A DNA stretch of 26,681 nt from a virus: the IMG/VR virus record IMGVR_UViG_3300044646_001569, positions 1 through 26,681 of that record; one strand, 5' to 3'. The position numbers and the translations under genes were made by a program. Below, piece by piece: positions 1,685 through 26,650 of the stretch. Position 1 is the first letter of the stretch; each line of letters opens with the position of its first letter. The notes beneath the pieces were generated by a model that saw nothing but the letters and a program-made list of their open reading frames with translations, had not been told where the DNA came from and did not search any database.

Positions 1685-1719
1685 GCGGCGAGTGCGCTCT
1701 TGAGCGAAAGTGAAGACGT

Positions 1720-1805
1720 AGAACGTGAACGATCAACAGCCGCGAACAAAGGAGGCGGCAACTATGAGTGATGAAAATGAGCGGTCTGTTGCATCGGCTG
1801 GTTCT
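1720..1805 (+). repeat. attC-like recombination hairpin 1
   Basis: R arm AGAAC (1720-1724), spacer GTGAA, L arm CGATCAACAG (1730-1739), loop, L' arm CTGTTGCATCG (1786-1796), spacer GCTG, R' arm GTTCT (1801-1805). The L stem is perfect apart from one extra C (1792) in the 3' arm, which is an extrahelical G if the bottom strand folds, as in integron attC sites. The conserved AAC/GTT triplets are present, but outside them the R boxes do not match the textbook RYYYAAC/GTTRRRY. The loop holds AAAGGAGG and the ATG (1764) of the next gene. Confidence 0.7.
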
Positions 1806-2012
1806 GGCTCGGGGTTGCCAGCACACCTGATGCAGCCGGAGTGGATGGAACTAGCGCGAGCCGTGACGTTCTTTGGCGTGCCGCTAGACAGACTTAGCCG
1901 TGACGAGTTGATTGCCAACATTGGATACCTCCTTACTCAAGTTGAGGATGTGAAGCGGATGCACCGCGCAACGCTGGAAATCTTGAAGGCGAGGCACCCG
2001 GTTTCTTGGTAG
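1764..2012 (+). CDS. Cassette protein B, start supplied by attC-like loop
   Basis: 82 residues. The ATG at 1764 follows aaaggaggcggcaact, an ideal ribosome site located in the loop of hairpin 1. The first residues (MSDENERSVASAGS) come from the hairpin's 3' side and are nearly the same as those of the next gene (RSVASAGS in both), while everything after the GTTCT box is unrelated. The body is predicted helical (PEWMELARAVTFFGV, LSRDELIANIGYLLTQVEDVKRM), and I recognise no family. It is followed after 2 nt by hairpin 2. The predicted recombination point lies within codon 13 (Gly, GGT), so the leader and body may have separate origins. Confidence 0.65.
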   Translation: MSDENERSVASAGSGSGLPAHLMQPEWMELARAVTFFGVPLDRLSRDELIANIGYLLTQVEDVKRMHRATLEILKARHPVSW

Positions 2013-2014
2013 CC

Positions 2015-2100
2015 AGAACGTGAACGATCAACAGCCGCGAACAAAGGAGGCGGCAACCATGAACGAGACGAATAAGCGGTCTGTTGCATCGGCTGGTTCT
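2015..2100 (+). repeat. attC-like recombination hairpin 2
   Basis: Same length (86 bp) and same arms as hairpin 1: AGAAC (2015-2019), GTGAA, CGATCAACAG, loop, CTGTTGCATCG with the extra C, GCTG, GTTCT (2096-2100). The loop is identical through the ribosome site and diverges after the ATG at 2059 (tgagtgatgaaaatg versus tgaacgagacgaata). The spacing to hairpin 1 is 295 bp, one cassette length. Confidence 0.7.
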
Positions 2101-2355
2101 CAGCCGGTGGCGTGGGCAGTTGAGTTTGACGGAGAGGTGGAGCCGTTCTGCGGTTCGTTTGACAAAAGCGAGGCAATCAAAGTGGCGGGTGGAGTCGGCC
2201 GTGTGTTTCCGCTGTGGCGGTCGCCCACGCTCACCGACGCGGAGCGGGAGGCGGTGGAGTGGGCAATCGGCGTTACCGCCAGAATGTACGACGACGCTGA
2301 CGGCGGCCCGATCAAGCGAGAGGCGCTGCGCGGGCTACTGGAACGGCAGAAGTGA
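2059..2355 (+). CDS. Cassette protein C with LTxxER...LRGLLER domain
   Basis: 98 residues. The ATG at 2059 lies in hairpin 2's loop behind AAAGGAGG. After the shared leader (RSVASAGS) comes 'QPVAWAVEFDGEVEPFCGSF', a layout common to small phage proteins that start PVAWAV. It ends with a helical domain PTLTDAEREAVEWAIG...ALRGLLERQK that is clearly related to the end of the 3024 gene (PTLTADERRAIDWS...TLRGILNRMK). The TGA stop overlaps the AGAAC arm of hairpin 3 (TGAGAAC). The function of the domain is unknown; it may be a small helical adaptor. Confidence 0.65.
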   Translation: MNETNKRSVASAGSQPVAWAVEFDGEVEPFCGSFDKSEAIKVAGGVGRVFPLWRSPTLTDAEREAVEWAIGVTARMYDDADGGPIKREALRGLLERQK

Positions 2356-2406
2356 GAACACGCAGGATAAGCGGCGGCCCCGCCGTCCGCTTCATCCGCT
2401 GGTTCT
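2355..2406 (+). repeat. attC-like recombination hairpin 3, short loop
   Basis: AGAAC (2355-2359), ACGCA, GGATAAGCGG (2365-2374), loop CGGCCCCGCCGT, CCGCTTCATCC (2387-2397, extra C at the same place), GCTG, GTTCT (2402-2406). The L-stem sequence differs from hairpins 1 and 2, yet pairing is kept by compensating changes, strong evidence that the fold rather than the sequence is conserved. The loop is short, with an inner CGG/CCG extension, and contains no start codon. Confidence 0.75.
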
Positions 2407-2428
2407 ATTGCGAACGGAGGAGTGGGTC

Positions 2429-2641
2429 GTGATTCTGAAAGTGCCGGAAGACTGTGCCTGCGATGTGTTCGACGCCAGCGGCGTGCGGCTTGAGTACGTC
2501 GTGTGGTGCGACACTGAGACGGGGGAGGCGGTGCATATCGTCCAGCCGCTTGAGTTCACAATCGACGATGATGGTGATGCTGGAGTTCGAAAAGAGTGGC
2601 GGCAGCATCCTGCCCCGCTGAAGTTCAACAGGTTTCGGTGA
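2429..2641 (+). CDS. Cassette protein D, hypothetical phage-type
   Basis: 70 residues. I chose the GTG at 2429 because cggaggag sits 5-6 nt before it; a TTG at 2408 is possible. Unlike its neighbours the start lies outside the hairpin. The order 'MILKVPEDCACDVFDASG', 'VRLEYVVWCDTETGEAVHIV', 'FTIDDDGDAGVR' suggests a small beta-sheet protein, and the V(V/E)WCDTETGE motif is one I associate with small phage proteins of unknown function. A 15-bp remnant of a hairpin follows its stop at 2647. Confidence 0.6.
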   Translation: MILKVPEDCACDVFDASGVRLEYVVWCDTETGEAVHIVQPLEFTIDDDGDAGVRKEWRQHPAPLKFNRFR

Positions 2642-2646
2642 GCAAT

Positions 2647-2661
2647 AGAACGCGTGGTTCC
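2647..2661 (+). repeat. Collapsed attC-like remnant
   Basis: AGAAC-GCGTG-GTTCC. The left AGAAC and right GTGGTTC look like the outer R arms of a hairpin whose L stem and loop have been deleted; GCGTGGTTC also matches the right flank of hairpin 5 (cgtggttct). It lies at the D/E cassette boundary where a site is expected. The short length makes this inference rather than proof. Confidence 0.45.
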
Positions 2662-2673
2662 GCAGGTAAAGCC

Positions 2674-2979
2674 ATGAAACTTGAAAGCCGAACGTCGAAG
2701 GCTGCCAACGCTGCCGACAGGTGGATTGAACAGTACGGCTGCGACCAGAGCGGCATCGCAAAACGCATTAGGTCGCTTGGCGATTCTCCGACGCCCGAAG
2801 CGGTCAACGAGATCACCGGAAACACATCATGGACGGACTGCCAATGCAACGAGTGCGACCGTTACGTTGATTGCGTGGTGCAGGTTGGTGACGAGCCGAC
2901 ATACGACTCAAGTACGGCGTGGCTGTGCGGAGACTGCATCGCAAAGGCGGCGTCGCTTTTGGCAAATGACGGACGGTGA
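2674..2979 (+). CDS. Cassette protein E with CxxC zinc-ribbon-like core
   Basis: 101 residues. The ATG at 2674 follows gcaggtaaagcc. The N-terminal half is helical (AANAADRWIEQYG, IAKRIRSLG, EAVNEITG). The C-terminal half has CQCNECDRYVDCVVQVG, then DSSTAWLCGDCIAKAASLL. Two CxxC pairs (CNEC and CGDC) about 33 residues apart fit a small zinc-binding ribbon. No catalytic motif is visible. It could be a nucleic-acid or protein adaptor. It lies between the collapsed remnant and hairpin 5. Confidence 0.6.
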   Translation: MKLESRTSKAANAADRWIEQYGCDQSGIAKRIRSLGDSPTPEAVNEITGNTSWTDCQCNECDRYVDCVVQVGDEPTYDSSTAWLCGDCIAKAASLLANDGR

Positions 2980-2982
2980 CGC

Positions 2983-3068
2983 GGAACGCCAGCGATCAGC
3001 GGCATCGAACACAGGAGACGACCATGACAGACGAGGTAGATGAGATGTCCGCTGCATCGCGTGGTTCT
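2983..3068 (+). repeat. attC-like recombination hairpin 5
   Basis: GGAAC (2983-2987), GCCAG, CGATCAGCGG (2993-3002), loop, CCGCTGCATCG (3049-3059, extra C in the same place), CGTG, GTTCT (3064-3068). Total 86 bp, as for hairpins 1 and 2, although the loop sequence differs completely. The loop again contains a ribosome site (acaggagacgacc) and ATG (3024) of the next gene. The R stem has a G.T wobble at its outer base. Confidence 0.7.
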
Positions 3069-3281
3069 GGCAGCCCAGTGTCGGTGTCGGTGCATGTGGA
3101 CAAGTCCGCGTGCGGCTTGCCATACAGCCGCCCGCTGCGACGAACCGTTCCGACGCTAACGGCTGATGAGCGGCGAGCCATCGACTGGTCGGCGACAATG
3201 CTGGAGCATGGGTCGCTTCCCGAAAGCGTCAACAGGACATGCGCCGAGACGCTTCGCGGGATACTTAATCGAATGAAGTGA
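3024..3281 (+). CDS. Cassette protein F with LTxxER...LRGILNR domain
   Basis: 85 residues. The ATG at 3024 lies inside the loop of hairpin 5 behind caggagacgacc. The leader MTDEVDEMSAASRGS is encoded by the hairpin arm and parallels the RSVASAGS leader of genes B and C. The C-terminal half (TLTADERRAIDWSATML...CAETLRGILNRMK) is homologous to that of gene C, so two cassettes carry members of one family. The stop overlaps a TGAGAAC motif, as in gene C, and a decayed right arm follows. Function unknown. Confidence 0.65.
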   Translation: MTDEVDEMSAASRGSGSPVSVSVHVDKSACGLPYSRPLRRTVPTLTADERRAIDWSATMLEHGSLPESVNRTCAETLRGILNRMK

Positions 3282-3449
3282 GAACCAATGTTTCTGCGGA
3301 ACCCGATAAACACGCCGCCCGTCGTGACAACTCCCCTGCGGGTGAGTTTCTGCCGGGGAGAATCGACTGAGACGGGATTTATCTGGCCTGCCGTCGTGAT
3401 AACGCGACGCTGAATGTCGCTACAGCGGCGATGCGACGCCGCTGACTGA
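3281..3449. other. Boundary region: decayed site, repeats and hairpins
   Basis: Begins with AGAAC-CAAT-GTTTCT (3281-3295), a probable decayed hairpin end. It contains the near-identical direct repeats CCGTCGTGACAAC (3319-3331) and CCGTCGTGATAAC (3391-3403), a stem CTCCCC/GGGGAG (3331-3336, 3355-3360) that embeds a near-copy of the CCCCTGCGG motif, and the stem listed at 3423-3444. No coding frame is convincing. This is the junction between the cassette array and the phage late genes. Confidence 0.4.
3423..3444 (+). terminator. 8-bp GC-rich hairpin before late unit
   Basis: CAGCGGCG, loop ATGCGA, CGCCGCTG: a perfect 8-bp stem with a 6-nt loop directly upstream of the CCCCCTGCGG element. There is no T-run, so termination is uncertain; it could isolate the cassette genes from the late promoter. 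Confidence 0.35.
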
Positions 3450-3483: not shown

Positions 3484-3491
3484 TGGCCGCC

Positions 3492-4568
3492 ATGACCGGC
3501 CACGAGCACGACCTCGCCCTCTCCGTCCACAGCTACTACGTCGGCGAGCTCGACGCCGGCCGCCGGGCGTGCGAGCGGCTCCTCGCCCGGCCCGACCTCA
3601 CGGAAGAGATCGAGCACATGGTCCGCACCAACCGGACGTGGTACACGCCCACGCTCGACGAGCTCGCCAGCGTCCACCACCAGCGGATCGACGTGGAGCC
3701 GGCCCACGAGGGCTGGTCGCTGTTCAACCCCACGCTCGCGAGCTACGGCGGCGACCTGGTCGCCCTGGTGCGATCCTCGAACTACCAGATCGTGGACGGC
3801 CGCTATGAGATGCCCGCCGCCGACGGCGGCTGCATCCGCACGGAGAACGTGCTCGTCAGGCTGCGGCCCGACCTCACCGTGGCCTCGGCCCGCGTTGTCG
3901 CCGGCCCCGACTACCCACGGACGGGCTTCGCGGTCACCGGCCTGGAGGACTGCCGGCTGCGATATACCCAAACGGGTATAGGCGTCTCGGCCACCGTCCG
4001 CGACGTGAGCCCATTCGACGGCCGCTGCCGGATCGCCACGGCCGACCTCGACCTGCGGACGGCCACCTTCTCGGGGCTGCGGGTGCTCGACGGGATCCAC
4101 GTCCAGGACCACGAAAAGAACTGGATGCCGTTTGTGGGCCGCGAGGGCTGGCTCTACGCGGCGAACCACAACGGTCACGTCGTCACGGTGGACCCCAACG
4201 GCTCGATCCCGGGGGCGTGGCAGATTTCGCAGCGTCGCCCGTCGCCGGACCTCGCCAAGCGGTTCCGTGGCGGCTCGCAGCTGCTCCAGTTCGACGACGG
4301 CTGGCTCGGCCTGGTGCACGAGGTGGCGGGCCTCGGCAGCCGCCGCGTCTACGAACACCGGTTTATCTGGCTTGACGCCGACCTCGAACTGCGGCGGGTC
4401 TCGCCCGCTTTCGCCTTTCGCGAAAGGCAGGCGATTGAGTTTGCCGCCGGGCTGGCGGTCAACGGCCACCGGCTGGTGGCCAGCTACGGCGTTCGCGACG
4501 CCGAGGCGTGGCTCACGGCGATCGACGCCGACGACCTTCGGAGGATGCTGTATGCCGTCACCGTTTGA
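3492..4568 (+). CDS. GH130-like beta-propeller protein with N-terminal repeat
   Basis: 358 residues; the ATG at 3492 is preferred over an upstream TTG (3483), which overlaps the putative -10. The N-terminus (about 1-50) looks like one or two TPR-type helices (VGELDAGRRACERLLARPDL). The rest shows the repeating blade pattern of five-bladed propeller glycoside phosphorylase/hydrolase relatives: FNPTLA, GLEDCRLR (near 152), HEKNWMPF (near 207), FRGGSQLLQF..GWLGLVHEV (258-277) and EFAAGLAV near the end. GH130 family members process mannose or related beta-linked sugars. It overlaps the methyltransferase start by 17 nt and heads a sugar-gene trio. Substrate cannot be read from sequence. Confidence 0.65.
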   Translation: MTGHEHDLALSVHSYYVGELDAGRRACERLLARPDLTEEIEHMVRTNRTWYTPTLDELASVHHQRIDVEPAHEGWSLFNPTLASYGGDLVALVRSSNYQIVDGRYEMPAADGGCIRTENVLVRLRPDLTVASARVVAGPDYPRTGFAVTGLEDCRLRYTQTGIGVSATVRDVSPFDGRCRIATADLDLRTATFSGLRVLDGIHVQDHEKNWMPFVGREGWLYAANHNGHVVTVDPNGSIPGAWQISQRRPSPDLAKRFRGGSQLLQFDDGWLGLVHEVAGLGSRRVYEHRFIWLDADLELRRVSPAFAFRERQAIEFAAGLAVNGHRLVASYGVRDAEAWLTAIDADDLRRMLYAVTV

Positions 4569-5100
4569 AGTGAAGATTTCCAAGACGCTGGCCGATGCGT
4601 GGCGGCCACACGACTGGTTCCAACTCGACGAGCGGGTCGCTCGCCACTACTACCGCAAGGCGTCTGTCGCCGCCGACGTGCGGCCGAAGCGGGTGATCGA
4701 GATCGGCACGCGGTGCGGCTACTCGCTTGTGTCGTTCGCCACGGCCTGCCCTGACGCCCGCTACTTGTGTATCGACGGGGCGGCCGACGACGACAGCCTC
4801 GACTGCCTGGCTCACTGGCAGAGCGTGGTCGAGCGATGGGCGATCGACGCGTCGCTTGTGGTGGTCAACAGCCGGGCGGTTCGCAGCCTGCCGCCGGCCG
4901 ACTTCGCCCACGTTGACGGCGACCACTCCTACGCCGGGGCGTTGCACGACCTGCACCTCGTGGCTCAGGTGCCCGTGATCCTGGCCGACGACTGCTGTAA
5001 CCCCGAGGTACGGAAAGCGGTCGATGAGTTCGCCCGCGAGAAGCGGCGGCGCGTGGACTTTATCAACGACGGGCTTCGGGAGGCGGCGGTGATCACATGA
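4552..5100 (+). CDS. Class I SAM-dependent methyltransferase
   Basis: 182 residues. The ATG at 4552 lies inside the end of the previous gene, after ttcggaggatgctgt. Motif I is VIEIGTRCGYS (about 48-58), the acidic second strand end is YLCIDG, and a later HVDGDHSYAGALHDL (about 120-134) places DGDH at the position typical of Methyltransf_24-type enzymes that act on sugars or small molecules. A Cys pair (ADDCCNPE) follows strand 5. It sits between a propeller sugar protein and a GT2 enzyme, so methylation of a glycan, possibly capping a chain, is a reasonable inference. A nucleic-acid target is less likely as no target-recognition domain is present. Confidence 0.75.
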   Translation: MPSPFEVKISKTLADAWRPHDWFQLDERVARHYYRKASVAADVRPKRVIEIGTRCGYSLVSFATACPDARYLCIDGAADDDSLDCLAHWQSVVERWAIDASLVVVNSRAVRSLPPADFAHVDGDHSYAGALHDLHLVAQVPVILADDCCNPEVRKAVDEFAREKRRRVDFINDGLREAAVIT

Positions 5101-6146
5101 AAATCGGCGTCTACGCATTGGCGAAGAATGAGGCGAAGCATTGCGCCGAATGGGCCGACTCGTGCCGGGAGGCCGACGTGCGGGTGGTCACCGACACAGG
5201 ATCCACCGACGGCACGCCGGGGATCCTGATGCAACAGGGCGTTACGGTCTGCAACGGCTACGTCGTGCCCTGGCGGTGGGACGATGCCCACAACCTGTCG
5301 CTCCACCATCTGCCGCCCGATGTCGATGTCTGCATCCGGCTTGATCTCGACGAGCGGCTGCAGCCCGGGTGGCGGGAGGTCATCGAGCGGGAGTGGGACA
5401 ACGAGCACAACAACCTCCGCTATCGCTACGTGTGGTCTTGGAAGGCCGACGGCACGCCGGGGCTCGTCTTCTACAGCGACCGCATCCACGCCCGTCACGG
5501 GTTCAGGTGGACGGCGGCGACGCACGAGGGGCTCGTGTGCTGGAACGGCGAGAAGCGGCAAAAGTTCGTCGAGGGGCTGGAGATCCACCATCACCGGGAC
5601 GCCGGCAAGCGGCACAAGACCGATCTCGCCCTGCTCCAGGTGGCCGTGCGCGAGGCTCCGCACGATGCCCGGGCCTGGTGGTATCTCGCCCGCGAAATGG
5701 AGTGGGCCGGCGACCCGCAGGCTGCGGCGACGTTCGTCCACTACCTCGGAATGAAAGGCGGCATGTGGACCGAGCGGGCCTACGCCTACCGCGCCCTGTT
5801 TCGCCTGACGGGCGACGAGAAGCATCTACACCACGCCGCGACGGAGGCGACCGGCGAGCCCGACGCCTGGCAGCAGCTGGCGTTCTGCCACTACAAGCGG
5901 GAGGAGTGGCGGGAGTGTCACGCCTTCGCCGCCCAAGCGATCAACGCCGACGGCCAGGGCACGCACGCGACCGATCCCGAGGCCAAGACAAAGGCCTACG
6001 ACCTCGCCAGCGTGGCGGCCTGGAATCTCGGCATGCGGCCCGAGGCCCTCCAGTTGGCGAGGGAAGCCGTGGCACGATGCCCGGGAGACCCACGCCTGAC
6101 GGGCAACGTCGAGGCAATGGAGCGAATCCTGGAGGCCGCCGCGTGA
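5097..6146 (+). CDS. GT2-family glycosyltransferase with helical-repeat tail
   Basis: 349 residues, ATGA overlap with the methyltransferase. The N-terminal GT-A fold shows IGVYALAKNEAKH, DTGSTDGT (about 33-40) and RLDLDERL (about 81-88), the nucleotide-sugar and DxD-type metal motifs of GT2. After about 175 come paired helices resembling TPR repeats (DARAWWYLAREMEWAGDPQ, PDAWQQLAFCHYKREEW, ASVAAWNLGMRPEALQL). This GT2-TPR fusion is known in bacterial and phage glycan systems. It likely transfers a sugar onto a virion or surface component; the acceptor is unknown. The last codon overlaps the GTG of the tail-completion gene, so sugar and tail genes are co-translated. Confidence 0.85.
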   Translation: MKIGVYALAKNEAKHCAEWADSCREADVRVVTDTGSTDGTPGILMQQGVTVCNGYVVPWRWDDAHNLSLHHLPPDVDVCIRLDLDERLQPGWREVIEREWDNEHNNLRYRYVWSWKADGTPGLVFYSDRIHARHGFRWTAATHEGLVCWNGEKRQKFVEGLEIHHHRDAGKRHKTDLALLQVAVREAPHDARAWWYLAREMEWAGDPQAAATFVHYLGMKGGMWTERAYAYRALFRLTGDEKHLHHAATEATGEPDAWQQLAFCHYKREEWRECHAFAAQAINADGQGTHATDPEAKTKAYDLASVAAWNLGMRPEALQLAREAVARCPGDPRLTGNVEAMERILEAAA

Positions 6147-7446: not shown

Positions 7447-7764
7447 ATGGCAGTGACCCTCGGCAAGGACGCGAATATCACGGGCATTGCGAATGCTCGC
7501 AGTGTCACGGTCAACAACTCGGCGAGTGAGATCGACGTGACCAAGTTCGGCGACGCGGCCCGCAAGTTCCGTAAGGCGCTTATCGAGCAGACCGTCGAGG
7601 TCGAATGCGTGGACGACCCGGGCGTTGAGGCCGGCGACACGTTCACGCTCGGTGGAACGAATACCGGCAACGTCGAGTACGTCGTGACCAGCGTCGCTAA
7701 GGCTGACCCGATCGACGGCATCCAGACGTGGACCGTTTCCGCCAGCCGTCACTCCACCACCTAA
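7447..7764 (+). CDS. Tail-tube-like structural protein, paralogue 1
   Basis: 105 residues starting MAVTLGKDANI. It shares with the next two genes the N-terminal LGKD, a central (E/T)IDVT/V segment, and a C-terminal strand pattern DGxxTWTVSA / DGAVTFTITA / DGVVTYTVEA. Beta-rich with no catalytic motif. Position after the head-tail joint protein and before the chaperone G/GT and tape measure is that of the major tail tube protein. Ribosome site cggag upstream. Which of the three paralogues is the main tube subunit is not decidable by sequence. Confidence 0.65.
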   Translation: MAVTLGKDANITGIANARSVTVNNSASEIDVTKFGDAARKFRKALIEQTVEVECVDDPGVEAGDTFTLGGTNTGNVEYVVTSVAKADPIDGIQTWTVSASRHSTT

Positions 7765-7779
7765 CGCAGGAGCACCAAC

Positions 7780-8100
7780 ATGTCCATTGTTCTTGGCAAG
7801 GACGGCTCGGCCCCTCCGTTCGGCACCGACATCATCTCGGCGACCTACACGGAAGAGTGTGAAGTCATCGACGTGACGAACCGCGCCAACGAGGGCGGGG
7901 CGTCGGGTGCAGCTGGCTACCGGGCCTACAAGGCCGGATTTACCACGAAGATGTGGGAGATCGAGTGCCACGACGCCACGGGCGTGATTGCTCAACTCAC
8001 GAGCAATACGCCGGCCAGCAGCTTTCTTGTCATGGGCGTCACTGAGAACATCGGAATTGACGGAGCCGTGACGTTTACGATCACCGCACGGGAGGGCTAA
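7780..8100 (+). CDS. Tail-tube-like structural protein, paralogue 2
   Basis: 106 residues, MSIVLGKDGSAPPFGTDI. The ATG is preceded by gcaggagcaccaac. It aligns by the LGKD start, EVIDVTNRANEGG, YRAYKAGF..KMWEIECHD and the ending GIDGAVTFTITAREG. It is the most divergent of the three in the middle, with an insertion of Gly-rich sequence (NEGGASGAAGYRAY). It may form an alternate ring or a decoration of the tail. Confidence 0.65.
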   Translation: MSIVLGKDGSAPPFGTDIISATYTEECEVIDVTNRANEGGASGAAGYRAYKAGFTTKMWEIECHDATGVIAQLTSNTPASSFLVMGVTENIGIDGAVTFTITAREG

Positions 8101-8104
8101 TCCC

Positions 8105-8476
8105 GTGGCGATCCAACTCGGCAAGGATTGCGTCATCAGCGTTGACGGCGTCACGCTGGTCGGCGTGCGTGCTGTCAACGTGCAGCGGACCGCACGCACG
8201 ATTGACGTAGACGAGTACGGCAGCCGCCAGGCGACCGTCTACCCGACCGGGTTTGAGACCTCAGTGTCGATTGAGTTCAACGACATTGACGGCTGCAACC
8301 TTGCCAAGGATGGCATCATTGAGGGGCGGCAGTTCAGCCTGGTTTCGGTCGGCGGCAGCGGCGTAGCTATTCCCTGCGTTGTCACGTCGTTTGCCGAAAG
8401 TCAGCCCGTCGATGGCGTCGTGACATACACGGTCGAAGCCCGCTTGTGTCGGGAAGGCATCCAGCCAAACGAATGA
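8105..8476 (+). CDS. Tail-tube-like structural protein, paralogue 3
   Basis: 123 residues from a GTG at 8105, 4 nt after the previous stop, with gggaggg upstream. It begins MAIQLGKDCVISVDGV, continues TARTIDVDEYGSRQATVYPTG and VSIEFNDIDG, and ends PVDGVVTYTVEARLCREGIQPNE. Its C-terminal extension distinguishes it from the other two. The arrangement of three neighbouring tube-like genes is compatible with gene duplication inside the operon. Confidence 0.65.
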   Translation: MAIQLGKDCVISVDGVTLVGVRAVNVQRTARTIDVDEYGSRQATVYPTGFETSVSIEFNDIDGCNLAKDGIIEGRQFSLVSVGGSGVAIPCVVTSFAESQPVDGVVTYTVEARLCREGIQPNE

Positions 8477-9086: not shown

Positions 9087-9241
9087 TGGCGGCGATCTTC
9101 AATGTGAACAGGGACCGCCGCAAGCCGCCAATCGACCCGTCAAAGCTACACCCCTTCGCTCGCAAGAAAGCAGTCCGCCAGGCCACACCAGAAGAGATTG
9201 CCAAACTTTTTGGGCCTGACTGGCACACGGTAGAAACATGA
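8846..9241 (+). CDS. Frameshifted T extension of chaperone (gpGT-like)
   Basis: In the -1 frame relative to G there is an open frame with no ATG, GTG or TTG before its conserved part. From 8963 it reads WSAIWEAAGILGVHPGEW, then FRQLAAARDARLEHDWW, HTANVMAAIFNVNRD, RRKPPIDPSKLHPF and GPDWHTVET. The 'W..ta...a...N.nr...(P/p)..P..(l/f)HPF' pattern is typical of the T part of siphovirus GT chaperones. Codon choice in this frame becomes good from about 8960. A slip at 8840 would give a 251-aa fusion with G residues 1-120. Its stop overlaps the ATG of the tape measure (ATGA), as usual. Confidence 0.65.
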   Translation, partial: PPAPPSNGRAPRGKDGRSGRRDARQGGGGAGRGEGVGSAWSAIWEAAGILGVHPGEWTFRQLAAARDARLEHDWWHTANVMAAIFNVNRDRRKPPIDPSKLHPFARKKAVRQATPEEIAKLFGPDWHTVET

Positions 9242-11742
9242 GTGCAGGACGTGTCAGGCAGGGCGGCGTATTCGTCGAAATCGGCGCTGACGCGCGCAAG
9301 TTCTTTGCGACGCTCGACCGCGTCAATAAGTCGGTCGGAAAAGTTGGCGCGTCGATCGCCGGTATCGGCGGCCGGATGGCCGGCGTCGGGGCCGGGCTTG
9401 CCGCACCGTTCGTGGCCTCGGCTATGGCCGGGGCACGGTTCCAGGACGTGCTGCTCAACGTCCAGGCGTCCACCGGGGCGACTGCGGCCGAGATCGACCA
9501 GGTCCGCAAGGCCGCCCTCTCAATGTCGCAGGCCCTCGGCGTCGGGCCGACCGAGGCCGCTGCCGGCTTCCTTGAACTGCTGAAGGCCGGCATGTCGCTG
9601 GAGCAGGTGCTCGGCGGGGCCGGCGAGGCGGCGATCGCGTTTGCCAAGGTCGGCGGCATGGCCGTGGCTGACGCCGCGGTCGTGATGGCCGACGCCATGA
9701 ACGTGTTCAAGGTGAGCGGCGACGTGGCTGCGAACACGCTCTCGGCTGCGGCCGACGCGAGCTCGACCTCGATCGAGGGCATCGCCCAAGCGTTCTCGCA
9801 GGTGTCGGCCGTCGCCGGGCTGGCCAACCAATCCATTCAGGACACGGCCGCTGCGTTGGCTGTGCTGGCCAACGCGGGCATCAAGGGATCAGACGCCGGC
9901 ACGAGCCTGAAGACGATGCTCATGCGGCTTATGGCCCCAGCCGAAGATGCCGTCGGAGCCTTGGAGCAGGTGGGCCTATCGGTGCAGTCGTTCCGCAACG
10001 CCGACGGCACGATGAAGCCGATGGTCGAGATCATCGGCACGCTCTCGACCGCCCTCGAAGGCATGGACCAGGCGGCAAAGGACGACATCTTCCGCCGCAT
10101 CTTTGGGTCCGACGCGATCCGGGCCGCCGCCGTGATGACTTCGGCCGGCGTCGATGGCTTCAACGCCATGCGGGACGGGATGGCCGGTGCGATGTCGGTG
10201 GGCGACAAGTTCGCCACGATGTCGAGCGGGCTGTCGGGGGCGATGGCGAGCCTGTTCGCCGCGATGGAGCGGCTGGCGATCGCTGTAAGCGATGCCGTGG
10301 CCCCGGCTCTGATGGCCCTCGCCGGGCCAATCACGGCGGTGGTCAACGGCTTCGCGTCAATCGTGAGCAACAACCAAGAGCTCGTGGCCAACATCGCCAA
10401 GGGCGTGGCCGTGTTTAGCGCTGTCGGCGCTGTCTTGGTCGGCGTCGGGGGCTCGCTGCAACTGGTGTCGTTTGGCCTGGGCGGCCTGATCAACGCCGCG
10501 TCGCTCGTCGTGGCTCCGATCGTGGGCATCATCACCACGCTGGCCGGGTTGGTCATGTCGTTCGTGTCGGCCACGGCTGGCGTGCTCGCCTACTCGGCCG
10601 CGTCGGTGGCGGCGGCCGTTGCATCCGGTACTGCGTGGGCCGTGGCCAACGCCCCGCTCTTAGCCCTTGTCGCGGTTCTCGCTGCTGCGGGCGGCTTCGT
10701 CTTCTACATGCTCGGAGGCTTTGAAGGCATCTCGTCTGCACTGAGCGGCGGGTTTGCTACGGCCGTGAGCGATGCGACGACACTTCTGACCGACCTTGGC
10801 AACATCGGCAGCACGACGTTCTCGGGGCTGTACGAAGCCATTGCCGGCGGCGACCTCCAGGGCGCAATGGACATCGCCATGGCCGGGCTCTACGCCGCCT
10901 GGGCTCGCGGGTCCGAGGCGATCATGGGCTCGGTCGATTCGTGGTCGGCGTTCGTGCAGAACACCGTGACCTACATGTGGGCCGGCATCAAGGGCGTGTT
11001 CGGCGACTCAATCAACTGGGTGCTCAACGCGTTTGACGACATGGTCGCTGCCGTCCAGAAAAGCTGGAACTACGTCCAGAGCTTCATCAAAAAGGGCTTC
11101 GACCTCGAAGCTGAAAACAAGAAGGTCACCGACGCCAACACAGCCCGCAAGCGGGAGCGGGAGGCGGCCCGCGGCTCGGGCGCGGAGATGAAGAAGGCCG
11201 ACGAGATCGCGGCTGGCCGCCTGGCGGAAAACGACAAGCGAGCCGAGGAGCGACGGGCCAACACGGTGGCCGCCGAGCAGAACCTCGGACAGGCGGCCCG
11301 AGGGGCCAGCAACCGCCGCGTCCAGGGCGAGCAGTTCGCCGACCTCCTGAAGAACATTGAATCCGCGTCGTCGATCGAGCAACTCCAGGACCTCTACGGC
11401 GAGTTCGACGCCCTCTCGTCCAACGGCCGGCTTTCGGCGCAGCAAGCCGCCACGATTGAGGCCGCGCTTGAAGACGCCCAAGAGCGTCTCAGTAAGGCTG
11501 GCAGTGCCGCAGCCGGCGGGGCCGCAGCGGCTGGCGCTGGCGGACAGGCGGCGGATCCGGCAGGCATGCAAGACGCCGCGAACCAGGCCTCCCAGAACCA
11601 AGGCGAGAGCGTCGGTTCGTTCTCCGCGTTTGCAGCTGGTGGTATGGGTGTAGGGACCAGCATTCCCCAGAAGCAGCTAGAGACGCTGCAGCGGATCGAG
11701 CAGAACACGCGCGAAGGCGACGGCGGCGTCGTGAAGGAGTAG
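9238..11742 (+). CDS. Tail tape measure protein (TP901 family)
   Basis: 834 residues. The N-terminal 350 residues follow the TP901/PhageMin_Tail pattern: GGRMAGVGAGLAAPF, a helical ARFQDVLLNVQASTGATAAEI, LSMSQALGVGPTEAAAGFLEL, AADASSTSIEGIAQAF, ANAGIKGSDAGTSLKTMLMRL and FRRIFGSDAIRAA. Residues about 375-500 are very hydrophobic (several predicted membrane segments), the part thought to enter the host membrane during DNA injection. The C-terminus is a charged coiled coil (KKADEIAAGRLAENDKRAEERR) ending in an Ala/Gly-rich linker. The length fits a tail of roughly 120 nm by the usual 1.5 angstrom per residue rule. No lysozyme or peptidase motif seen. Confidence 0.92.
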   Translation: MSAGRVRQGGVFVEIGADARKFFATLDRVNKSVGKVGASIAGIGGRMAGVGAGLAAPFVASAMAGARFQDVLLNVQASTGATAAEIDQVRKAALSMSQALGVGPTEAAAGFLELLKAGMSLEQVLGGAGEAAIAFAKVGGMAVADAAVVMADAMNVFKVSGDVAANTLSAAADASSTSIEGIAQAFSQVSAVAGLANQSIQDTAAALAVLANAGIKGSDAGTSLKTMLMRLMAPAEDAVGALEQVGLSVQSFRNADGTMKPMVEIIGTLSTALEGMDQAAKDDIFRRIFGSDAIRAAAVMTSAGVDGFNAMRDGMAGAMSVGDKFATMSSGLSGAMASLFAAMERLAIAVSDAVAPALMALAGPITAVVNGFASIVSNNQELVANIAKGVAVFSAVGAVLVGVGGSLQLVSFGLGGLINAASLVVAPIVGIITTLAGLVMSFVSATAGVLAYSAASVAAAVASGTAWAVANAPLLALVAVLAAAGGFVFYMLGGFEGISSALSGGFATAVSDATTLLTDLGNIGSTTFSGLYEAIAGGDLQGAMDIAMAGLYAAWARGSEAIMGSVDSWSAFVQNTVTYMWAGIKGVFGDSINWVLNAFDDMVAAVQKSWNYVQSFIKKGFDLEAENKKVTDANTARKREREAARGSGAEMKKADEIAAGRLAENDKRAEERRANTVAAEQNLGQAARGASNRRVQGEQFADLLKNIESASSIEQLQDLYGEFDALSSNGRLSAQQAATIEAALEDAQERLSKAGSAAAGGAAAAGAGGQAADPAGMQDAANQASQNQGESVGSFSAFAAGGMGVGTSIPQKQLETLQRIEQNTREGDGGVVKE

Positions 11743-25326: not shown

Positions 25327-26259
25327 TCACGCGGCCGACTCTGGCCCTTGACCAATACTGTCAATGGGCGGGTCGGTCAGGTCGAGCGGCGGCATCGTGG
25401 CCCGATCCTCTGGGCAGATGGTCGGATCGACATACACCTGCTGCAGATTGGGATCCGCGTGATCAAGCATCTGCGTCGCTGCGGCCCTTCCGCCGGCCAG
25501 TGCGGCGTATGAGGCTGCCGTACGCCGAAAGCCGTGAAAGCCTCTGTATCGCACGCCTGCGAGCTTGCAGAGGAGTTTGAGGCTATTCCACTGGGCTCGG
25601 CTCTTGCGGTCCCACGGCCACACCAGAGCGTCTGGCGGCCCCTGCTGCGGCGACAACATCTTCACAAGCTCGGGCGGTATGTCCCGCTCGATGTCGCGGG
25701 TGCTGCCCTTTCGCGTCTCGCCGAGAAACACGACCTTGCCCCGCGCGAGGTCCACCTGCCCCCAACGCAGTGACGTGAGGGCCGTAAAGCGTTCGCCAGT
25801 GCAGTAGGCGGCATAGAGCACGGTGGACCACCACCAGGCCGACGGCCTGCCGCCCGTCTTGCCGTTGCGGCGTTTGGCCCGCCGGATCAGGGCCGCCACG
25901 TCGGCCAGCGTGTAGGCACGACCGGTCGGCAGTCGCTTCGGGACTTTGATCCGCGGGAGCTCGGGGAAGTCGGCCGCCCATTTCTTTCTGGCGGCGAGGT
26001 TCCAGGCGGCTGCGAGCATCACCTTGTCCTTTTGGACACTTGCGGCAGATGGAACCGCCCCTCTCCATCCCGGCGTCGCTGCCCTCCATCGCAGATAGCG
26101 GGAGATGACGAGGTCGTCGAGGTCGGCGACGGTGGCCTCTCGGCCGAGGAAGGCGTCCAGCCGGTCGGCTAGCTGGTCGTAGAGCTTCACTGTCTTAGCG
26201 TTCAGATTTCGGAGCGTTGAATACCGCTCCACCAGTTCGCGGAAGGTCATCGGTTGCAT
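25327..26259 (-). CDS. int: Phage-type tyrosine recombinase (integrase)
   Basis: 310 residues. I chose the start at 26259 (minus strand) because CTCCT at 26267-26271 (AGGAG on the coding strand) precedes it by 7 nt; a longer frame continues upstream without ribosome site. The N-terminal core-binding domain (TFRELVERYSTLRNLNAKTVKLYDQLADRL) resembles SAM-like integrase domains. The catalytic domain has Arg157 in CTGERFTALTSL, His242-x-x-Arg245 (HGFRRTAASY), His267 (LDHAD) and Tyr276 (QQVYVDP): all residues of an active tyrosine recombinase are present. Missing the extra helix insertion typical of integron IntI, so it is a prophage integrase and not the enzyme for the attC-like sites. Confidence 0.9.
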   Translation of the reverse strand: MQPMTFRELVERYSTLRNLNAKTVKLYDQLADRLDAFLGREATVADLDDLVISRYLRWRAATPGWRGAVPSAASVQKDKVMLAAAWNLAARKKWAADFPELPRIKVPKRLPTGRAYTLADVAALIRRAKRRNGKTGGRPSAWWWSTVLYAAYCTGERFTALTSLRWGQVDLARGKVVFLGETRKGSTRDIERDIPPELVKMLSPQQGPPDALVWPWDRKSRAQWNSLKLLCKLAGVRYRGFHGFRRTAASYAALAGGRAAATQMLDHADPNLQQVYVDPTICPEDRATMPPLDLTDPPIDSIGQGPESAA

Positions 26260-26273
26260 AGCTACTCTCCTGG

Positions 26274-26317
26274 GTGGAGGCACTACTATACAAAAGTACA
26301 ACTCCCGCCGCCTCCAC
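26274..26317. promoter_or_regulatory. 8-bp inverted repeat upstream of integrase
   Basis: GTGGAGGC (26274-26281) and GCCTCCAC (26310-26317) are perfect inverted repeats spaced by 28 bp of AT-rich DNA (ACTACTATACAAAAGTACAA). They flank the region expected to contain the integrase promoter and could be operator arms or recombinase arm-type sites. Confidence 0.45.
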
Positions 26318-26344
26318 TCGAACATTGGAGCTGCCCACGATCCT

Positions 26345-26413: not shown

Positions 26414-26650
26414 ATGGTCGTGGCCCTACCTGAAGGCAAGAAGCTGATTTCGACGGCTGACGCCGCCAAGAAACTTGGCGTCAGCATGGGCAGGGTCCGC
26501 CAGTTGGGCCTGCTCGGGGCCAAGAAAGGCGGGCTGACCCGCTATTGGGCCGCCCCGACCGCCCTGGTGTTCGACGAGGCCGAGGTCGAGAAGCTGGCCA
26601 AGGCCAAGCCGAAGACCGGCCGCCCCAAGGGCGGGTTCAAGGCCAACTAG
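26414..26650 (+). CDS. Excisionase-like HTH (MerR-superfamily) protein
   Basis: 78 residues, divergent from the integrase. An N-terminal helix-turn-helix ISTADAAKKLGVSMGRVRQL, a wing-like strand with GLTRYWAAPTALVFDEAEV, and a basic C-terminus KAKPKTGRPKGGFKAN are the order of small excisionase/MerR-type DNA-binding proteins. Divergent pairing with an integrase supports a directionality or regulatory role, e.g. Xis. The starting ATG lies at the predicted transcription start; there is no ribosome site. An alternative role as a plain regulator cannot be excluded. Confidence 0.7.
   Translation: MVVALPEGKKLISTADAAKKLGVSMGRVRQLGLLGAKKGGLTRYWAAPTALVFDEAEVEKLAKAKPKTGRPKGGFKAN

Follow-up and report, generated by a model that had tools for sequence, protein, structure and literature searches.

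As a rule, integron cassettes lack a promoter, and those remote from the integron platform are often poorly translated because the hairpins of attC sites block ribosomes (PMC8876359). Translation signals within a recombination site can aid cassette expression, as in ORF-11 of attI1 and the short ORFs of attC sites; the usual TAG in the GTTRRRY core terminates such short ORFs, ORF-11 among them, and the ribosome restarts (PMC8876359). Clusters of attC sites without intI have been described in temperate and virulent phages, and several of these sites were recombined into attI1 by IntI1 (Qi et al. 2023, PMC9892861). The 17 phage CALINs of that study have GTTRRRY boxes, and attC-internal start codons are not described in the portions of the paper available to us.

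Two groups of chromosomal integrons also have to be compared with the sites considered here. Those of the Planctomycetota, for which an attC model has been published (Ghaly et al. 2021, PMC8352920), have near-identical stems (CGATCAGCGG / CCGCTGCATCG) with the same bulges, and carry intI on the same contigs as the attC arrays; their cassettes differ, however, in that gene direction is canonical in 13 of 16, and none of 24 array sites holds a Shine-Dalgarno sequence (SD) and start codon in its loop. Integrons of the Cyanobiaceae share the attC architecture, and one member holds phage-type cassettes beside intI, but the native stems differ in sequence (CTGAGTGGCAGGC...) and none was seen with a start in the loop.

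The DNA analyzed here, an IMG/VR virus record of 26,681 bp that we refer to as the window, is a fragment of a temperate tailed phage. We consider it highly probable that positions 1718-3285 constitute a five-cassette CALIN in this phage, with the + strand of the window corresponding to the attC bottom strand, each gene lying downstream of its own attC site, and translation mostly starting within the attC loop. A phage-borne, integrase-less array is in itself of a known kind (PMC9892861). As described there, the phage CALINs differ from the arrays studied here, which have sites of the planctomycete type and genes on the bottom strand that start in the loop, and which were found on 60 contigs with a single pattern. 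The present sites also differ from ORF-11 and the short attC ORFs, which end at the core (PMC8876359), in that the start within the phage attC gives one continuous fusion with the gene through an R box that is recoded and free of stops.

Hairpins and cassettes of the array

Four hairpins lie at 1720-1805, 2015-2100, 2355-2406 and 2983-3068, where a preliminary description of this DNA had placed them, and both the sequence and the folds bear this out. In each, outer arms of AGAAC or GGAAC face GTTCT, unpaired spacers of 5 nt and 4 nt follow, and a stem of 4+6+4 bp carries two unpaired bases, both in the 3' arm: a C on the outer side and, six nucleotides from it, a T farther in (T-N6-C). The loop is 37 nt long in three sites and is CCC in site 3. 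The R arms, 5/4-nt spacers, 10-bp L stem (4+6) and extra C in the 3' arm that had been reported are all present in the folds, and the description holds as far as it went, but it had overlooked the four further base pairs past the L stem and the extrahelical T, the ribosome-binding site (RBS) and ATG inside three of the four loops, and a fifth, stem-less site at 2645-2663.

A descriptor search of the window returned exactly four hits on the + strand and none on the - strand, compared with 10 hits in total over 100 dinucleotide shuffles of the window, or about 0.1 per window. In an alignment of 37 sequences the 14-bp stem is 97.5% paired, and 11 of the 14 pairs show changes on both sides, in agreement with the compensating changes noted before. 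The covariance model built from this alignment, a check that had been proposed at the outset, lends strong support, finding all four window sites at 55-84 bits and nothing in seven unrelated bacterial loci. Rfam, searched at its gathering thresholds, gave no match in the window.

As a control we folded the bottom strand of a resistance-cassette attC site: its R helix is 7 bp long, its spacers measure 5 and 4 nt, and the 3' arm bears T-N6-G bulges. Site 3 of the window folds in the same way, but with T-N6-C. This motif is present in 190 of the 209 viral and window sites, and T-N6-G and T-N6-C are the forms best excised by IntI1 (PMC3053210). The window hairpins are imperfect palindromes with R and L helices, an unpaired central spacer and a terminal loop, as expected of attC sites; their core sites depart from RYYYAAC/GTTRRRY, with AAC and GTT always retained. 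Judged by fold, bulge pattern and the pairing of R boxes discussed below, the four hairpins are integron attC sites in a cassette array, as had been proposed from the letters of the sequence, and the remark that their R boxes are not of the textbook kind extends to the phage sites at large, which have mostly GTTCTNN or GTTATNN.

The first (R') and last (R'') bases of an integron cassette derive from the one attC site of the circular cassette, and are hence complementary despite changes of neighbor. The four variable R-box bases match fully within the cassette in 116 of 148 cases, compared with 26 of 148 between the two boxes of one integrated site, and in the window four of the five cassettes match perfectly (GTTCTGG/CCAGAAC, GTTCTCA/TGAGAAC, GTTCTAT/ATAGAAC and GTTCCGC/GCGGAAC).

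All of the window sites are annotated on the - strand, their bottom strand being the + strand of the window. Site 1 (1718-1807; 82.7 bits) has the R boxes GTAGAAC/GTTCTGG and a 37-nt loop that holds AAAGGAGG and the ATG at 1764; from this ATG, with AAAGGAGG as its SD, runs the 82-aa ORF of cassette 1 (1764-2012, + strand), whose family, F30, also occurs in another phage contig, L032. In site 2 (2013-2102; 78.7 bits; CCAGAAC/GTTCTCA) the first box is the reverse complement of the GTTCTGG that opens cassette 1, and the loop holds an SD and the ATG at 2059 of the 98-aa ORF of cassette 2 ('SQPVAWAV...LTDAEREAVEW...LRGLLERQK'; 2059-2355, + strand), whose stop TGA lies within the R box TGAGAAC. Site 3 (2353-2408; 55.2 bits; z = -4.55 as DNA) belongs to a short class, with 56 nt and a CCC triloop, and its boxes are TGAGAAC, which pairs with the GTTCTCA of cassette 2, and GTTCTAT; the 70-aa ORF of cassette 3 (2429-2641, + strand) starts with GTG behind its own SD, GGAGGAG, just past the site.

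Next comes the stem-less attC remnant (2645-2663; ATAGAAC GCGTG GTTCCGC), from which the whole stem has been deleted, and which is recognized as a fifth boundary because ATAGAAC pairs with the GTTCTAT of cassette 3 and GTTCCGC with the GCGGAAC at 2981. Cassette 4 (ORF of 101 aa with two CxxC pairs, 2674-2979, + strand) is therefore without an attC stem, and is probably no longer mobile by itself. Site 4 (2981-3070; 84.0 bits; GCGGAAC/GTTCTGG) again has an SD and an ATG, at 3024, in its loop, and starts the 85-aa ORF of cassette 5 (3024-3281, + strand), the C-terminus of which is homologous to that of cassette 2. The stop of cassette 5 falls in the terminal R box TGAGAAC (3279-3285, + strand) that ends the array, where two of the four variable bases match its GTTCTGG. 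As read from these boundaries, the array is one of five cassettes, one of them with a deleted stem.

Searches of the window cassette ORFs against Pfam and PHROGs gave nothing convincing, and the array DNA had no match among 50,697 phage records. Cassette products are mostly small and without an assigned family, recognizable cargo in other records comprising an HNH endonuclease, a DNA methyltransferase, a PAPS-reductase-family protein and a DUF551 protein; the cassettes probably supply small accessory phage genes.

Strand, gene ownership and the start of translation

Relatives of the array were gathered with one specific pattern, which includes an RBS and matched 60 IMG/VR contigs. A scan of these contigs gave 205 viral sites, nearly all on a single strand per contig, and the same scan of 244 kb of shuffled sequence gave none. 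Related arrays were found in Planctomycetota metagenome-assembled genomes and in a Cyanobium culture assembly; among nine bacterial assemblies reached via matching sites five had IntI over the cut-off, and integron integrases lie on the array-bearing contigs of G044, G049 and G046.

Whether a hairpin travels with the gene before it or the gene after it can be read from arrays that share only one of the two. Arrays that share the downstream gene and not the upstream one have an arm identity of 0.85, with 58% of pairs at 0.9 or more, whereas those that share the upstream gene and not the downstream one have an arm identity of 0.66, with 0% at 0.9 or more, against a background of 0.65; the pairs in this comparison have sequences in common, which makes them non-independent, and a few of the contigs nearly duplicate one another. 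Identity between arrays drops at AAC. By this linkage the hairpin belongs to its downstream gene.

Given that the bulges on the + strand match those of the control attC bottom strand, and that the linkage test and the geometry of intI and array agree, the + strand of the window is the attC bottom strand, with the C itself extrahelical. The geometry is that of G044, where the array extends away from the 3' side of intI, in the polarity to be expected if cassettes inserted at an attI in that position; transcription of intI toward attI is known in Treponema, and the Treponema IntI falls into one group with its counterparts in Synechococcus and Blastopirellula (PMC3607928). The preliminary description had assigned the + strand to the top of attC and placed the extrahelical base, a G, on the opposite, bottom strand; on this point the linkage test, the bulge pattern and the geometry all contradict it. 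Because the genes too lie on the + strand, the phage genes are inverted relative to ordinary cassettes, and, since the hairpin moves with the downstream gene, relative to planctomycete chromosomal cassettes in particular. Consistent with this, the bottom strand carries the longest SD-bearing ORF in 140 of 150 phage cassettes versus 3 of 16 planctomycete chromosomal ones. In place of the usual order, in which attC lies 3' of its gene, the attC site here accompanies a downstream gene on the bottom strand.

The attC loop holds both an SD and a start codon in 121 of the 205 viral sites (~59%), a share that is inflated because the collecting pattern contains the RBS; without the sites chosen by the pattern it is 62 of 103. 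In a further 54 of the 205 the start lies just past the site. In 102 of 109 unique sites the frame of the loop ATG continues without a stop for at least 25 codons beyond the R box, the figures for the other two frames being 7 and 16, and the distance from ATG to GTT varies from 19 to 52 nt among loop-start sites. Predicted unpairedness is only moderate, with means of 0.62 for the SD and 0.55 for the ATG. At the other end of the cassette, stops occur within the terminal R box, either as the TGA of TGAGAAC, 4 nt before AAC (55 cassettes), or as the TAA of ATAAC, 1 nt before AAC (18 cassettes). In most phage cassettes the reading frame thus passes from the loop ATG through the 3' attC arm and the R box into the gene body, and it often stops in the terminal R box. 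A short phage attC class (~49 nt, with a tiny loop), in which the SD and start of the gene lie just past the R box, makes up 47 of the 205 viral sites.

A fused frame of this sort restricts which R boxes can be used. GTTCT preceded by G reads GGT TCT in the dominant frame, in which GTTAGNN, GTTAANN and GTTGANN give TAG, TAA and TGA, respectively, so that most GTTRRRY boxes are closed to translation; loop-start sites with GTTAG use a different frame in four of four cases. Host planctomycete arrays have mixed GTTAGGC and GTTCNNN boxes. We infer that the phage boxes depart from the textbook form because most GTTRRRY boxes would place a stop in the fused frame, and that selection of GTTCT and GTTAT boxes by the reading frame would be the simplest account of them.

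Carrier, exchange and competing explanations

That the carrier is a temperate tailed phage, as the preliminary description had suggested in calling it a possible prophage, follows from several genes of the window: a tail tape measure protein (9238-11742, + strand) and a phage beta-1,4-glycosyltransferase (5097-6143, + strand; phrog_13126, E 5.6e-73), both in the same direction as the array, a weak match to a major tail protein, a phage tyrosine integrase of the lysogeny type that matches phrog_1 (25327-26325, - strand), and an excisionase-like regulator (26414-26650, + strand; phrog_66, E 3.6e-6). The weak tail match (phrog_1407) is that of the third of three tandem look-alike ORFs of 105-123 aa at 7447-8476. 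Between the array and the tail genes, at 3489-6143, the window encodes a 359-aa protein resembling beta-propeller glycosidases, a possible SAM methyltransferase and the glycosyltransferase, perhaps a glycan-modification set, in which the family match is that of the glycosyltransferase only.

Structural and packaging genes also stand beside the array in related records. In G038 it lies upstream of HNH, terminase, portal, protease, adaptor and tape measure genes. Large terminase (TerL) was found in 19 of the 41 phage records. In six of these records the TerL match crosses a single in-frame stop, TAG in G012, G013 and G026 and TGA in G007, G022 and G040, which could reflect stop recoding, an insertion or a frameshift.

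Cassette families are found with different neighbors in different phages, which speaks against one fixed operon, the outcome that had been named as refuting a cassette array. Over most of the structural regions that they share, G035 and G038 are 82-91% identical; they have one common cassette end and then different cassettes, their homology ending at the R box. The pair L032 and G038 (97-99% identical in the main matches) was considered as a further case of site-specific exchange and rejected, the break near the array falling inside a cassette.

Exchange seems also to have reached a bacterial chromosome. On contig C39 of Cyanobium FGCU52, which carries intI, three phage-type cassettes whose genes lie on the bottom strand stand in tandem between native attC sites. 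The contig could conceivably be misassembled, though every junction (5 of 5) has matching R boxes; and its native attC types recur in other Cyanobiaceae, which makes a stray contig from a planctomycete unlikely. Because a contig with intI holds three phage-type cassettes between native ones, cassettes have very probably been exchanged between phages and a chromosomal integron, and C39 is the best, if circumstantial, evidence that bacterial IntI platforms accept phage-type cassettes. The same contig (14860-15724 of L117) contains a head-to-tail duplication of a native Cyanobium cassette, its two attC sites being identical and 762 bp apart. Among 151 Cyanobiaceae genomes, 27 encode an integron integrase scoring above the cut-off, and sites resembling attC are dispersed over many contigs.

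The host of the phages is most likely a freshwater planctomycete, given tetranucleotide composition, attC similarity and a weak similarity of TerL. All eight phage records profiled (8/8) are closer in tetranucleotides to three intI-bearing planctomycetes than to Cyanobiaceae. The TerL of G038 has no relative among 101 Cyanobiaceae and has relatives in planctomycetes at 34-38% identity, too weak to fix the host. The phage-type pattern gave only three hits in 392 planctomycete genomes, each with two mismatches.

With four attC sites and no match to the integron integrase family TIGR02249, the window holds a CALIN (at least two attC sites with no intI nearby) and not a complete integron with intI and attI, as the preliminary description had it. 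Granted that the cassettes are genuine, recombination might be due to the tyrosine integrase of the phage, or to a phage IntI that has escaped notice, instead of to a host IntI. A related tyrosine integrase does occur in the window and in several relatives, and the phage records are incomplete, but the window enzyme matches lysogeny integrases and not TIGR02249, that family is found in 0 of 41 phage records (the window and 40 others, all of them fragments), and the phage-type cassettes of Cyanobium adjoin a bacterial intI. We therefore regard a phage recombinase as unlikely, and prefer a host IntI acting in trans, although no phage of the set was observed together with an IntI-bearing host in a single cell.

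It was also reasonable to consider that the arrays are no more than frozen remnants of a single capture from a bacterial integron, inherited since then as a fixed operon. The stem-less site of the window would fit such decay, as would the constant cassette order in some close contigs (L024/L027, L054/L055 and L013/L063). Against this, cassette families change neighbors between phages, G035 and G038 diverge at an R box after a shared cassette end, and stem pairs and reading frame are kept intact among relatives, which makes a frozen origin rather improbable.

The presence of an RBS and ATG in the loop at most sites, and of an array co-directional with phage structural genes, might suggest that the hairpins are RNA control elements, 5' leaders of a phage gene family that resemble attC by convergence and spread by homologous recombination. 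However, homology ends at the AAC core and not within the conserved stem, 47 short sites share the architecture with no room in the loop for an RBS, the T-N6-C bulges agree with published attC sites, the same sites adjoin intI in bacteria, and the covariation of R boxes at the start and end of each cassette (116/148) largely refutes the proposal, which we hold to be very improbable.

Least plausible of all is a bacterial origin of the IMG/VR contigs, as integrons wrongly classed as viral, for although gene-poor or unknown-rich arrays may mislead classifiers in general and 22 of the 41 records have no TerL hit, the arrays lie upstream of, and in the same direction as, HNH, terminase and portal genes in several records (G035, G036, G038, G009 and G026), and the 392 planctomycete genomes yielded only the three two-mismatch matches.

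A start codon within attC and its possible consequences

Taking the hairpins as attC sites served by a host integrase, a host IntI would excise and insert cassettes in trans, acting on the folded bottom strand of single-stranded phage DNA, and the arrays would be transcribed together with the surrounding phage operon. A start codon within attC would make a cassette translatable wherever it lands, and would sidestep the block that attC hairpins impose on downstream translation. We lean toward the broader picture that phages of freshwater planctomycetes keep a cassette lineage of their own, with inverted genes, a start in the folded attC, a recoded, stop-free R box and a stop codon in the terminal R box, which is shuffled in trans by host integrases and leaks into chromosomal integrons of further phyla, the cyanobacteria for example. 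The design, with inverted genes that start within attC, appears to be new; no earlier description of such cassettes was found in the open-access literature searched, subscription journals being outside its scope.

One hairpin would thus do both tasks, recombination as folded DNA and initiation of translation as mRNA, and the coding constraint would account for the departure from the GTTRRRY consensus. Searches that expect GTTRRRY and a gene upstream of attC may miss such arrays. Traffic of cassettes from phage to chromosome across phyla becomes directly testable in a sequenced Cyanobium culture. If the proposal is correct, the dual-use hairpin would remove the translational part of the position effect on cassettes, and translation-ready cassettes would form a common pool of accessory phage genes.
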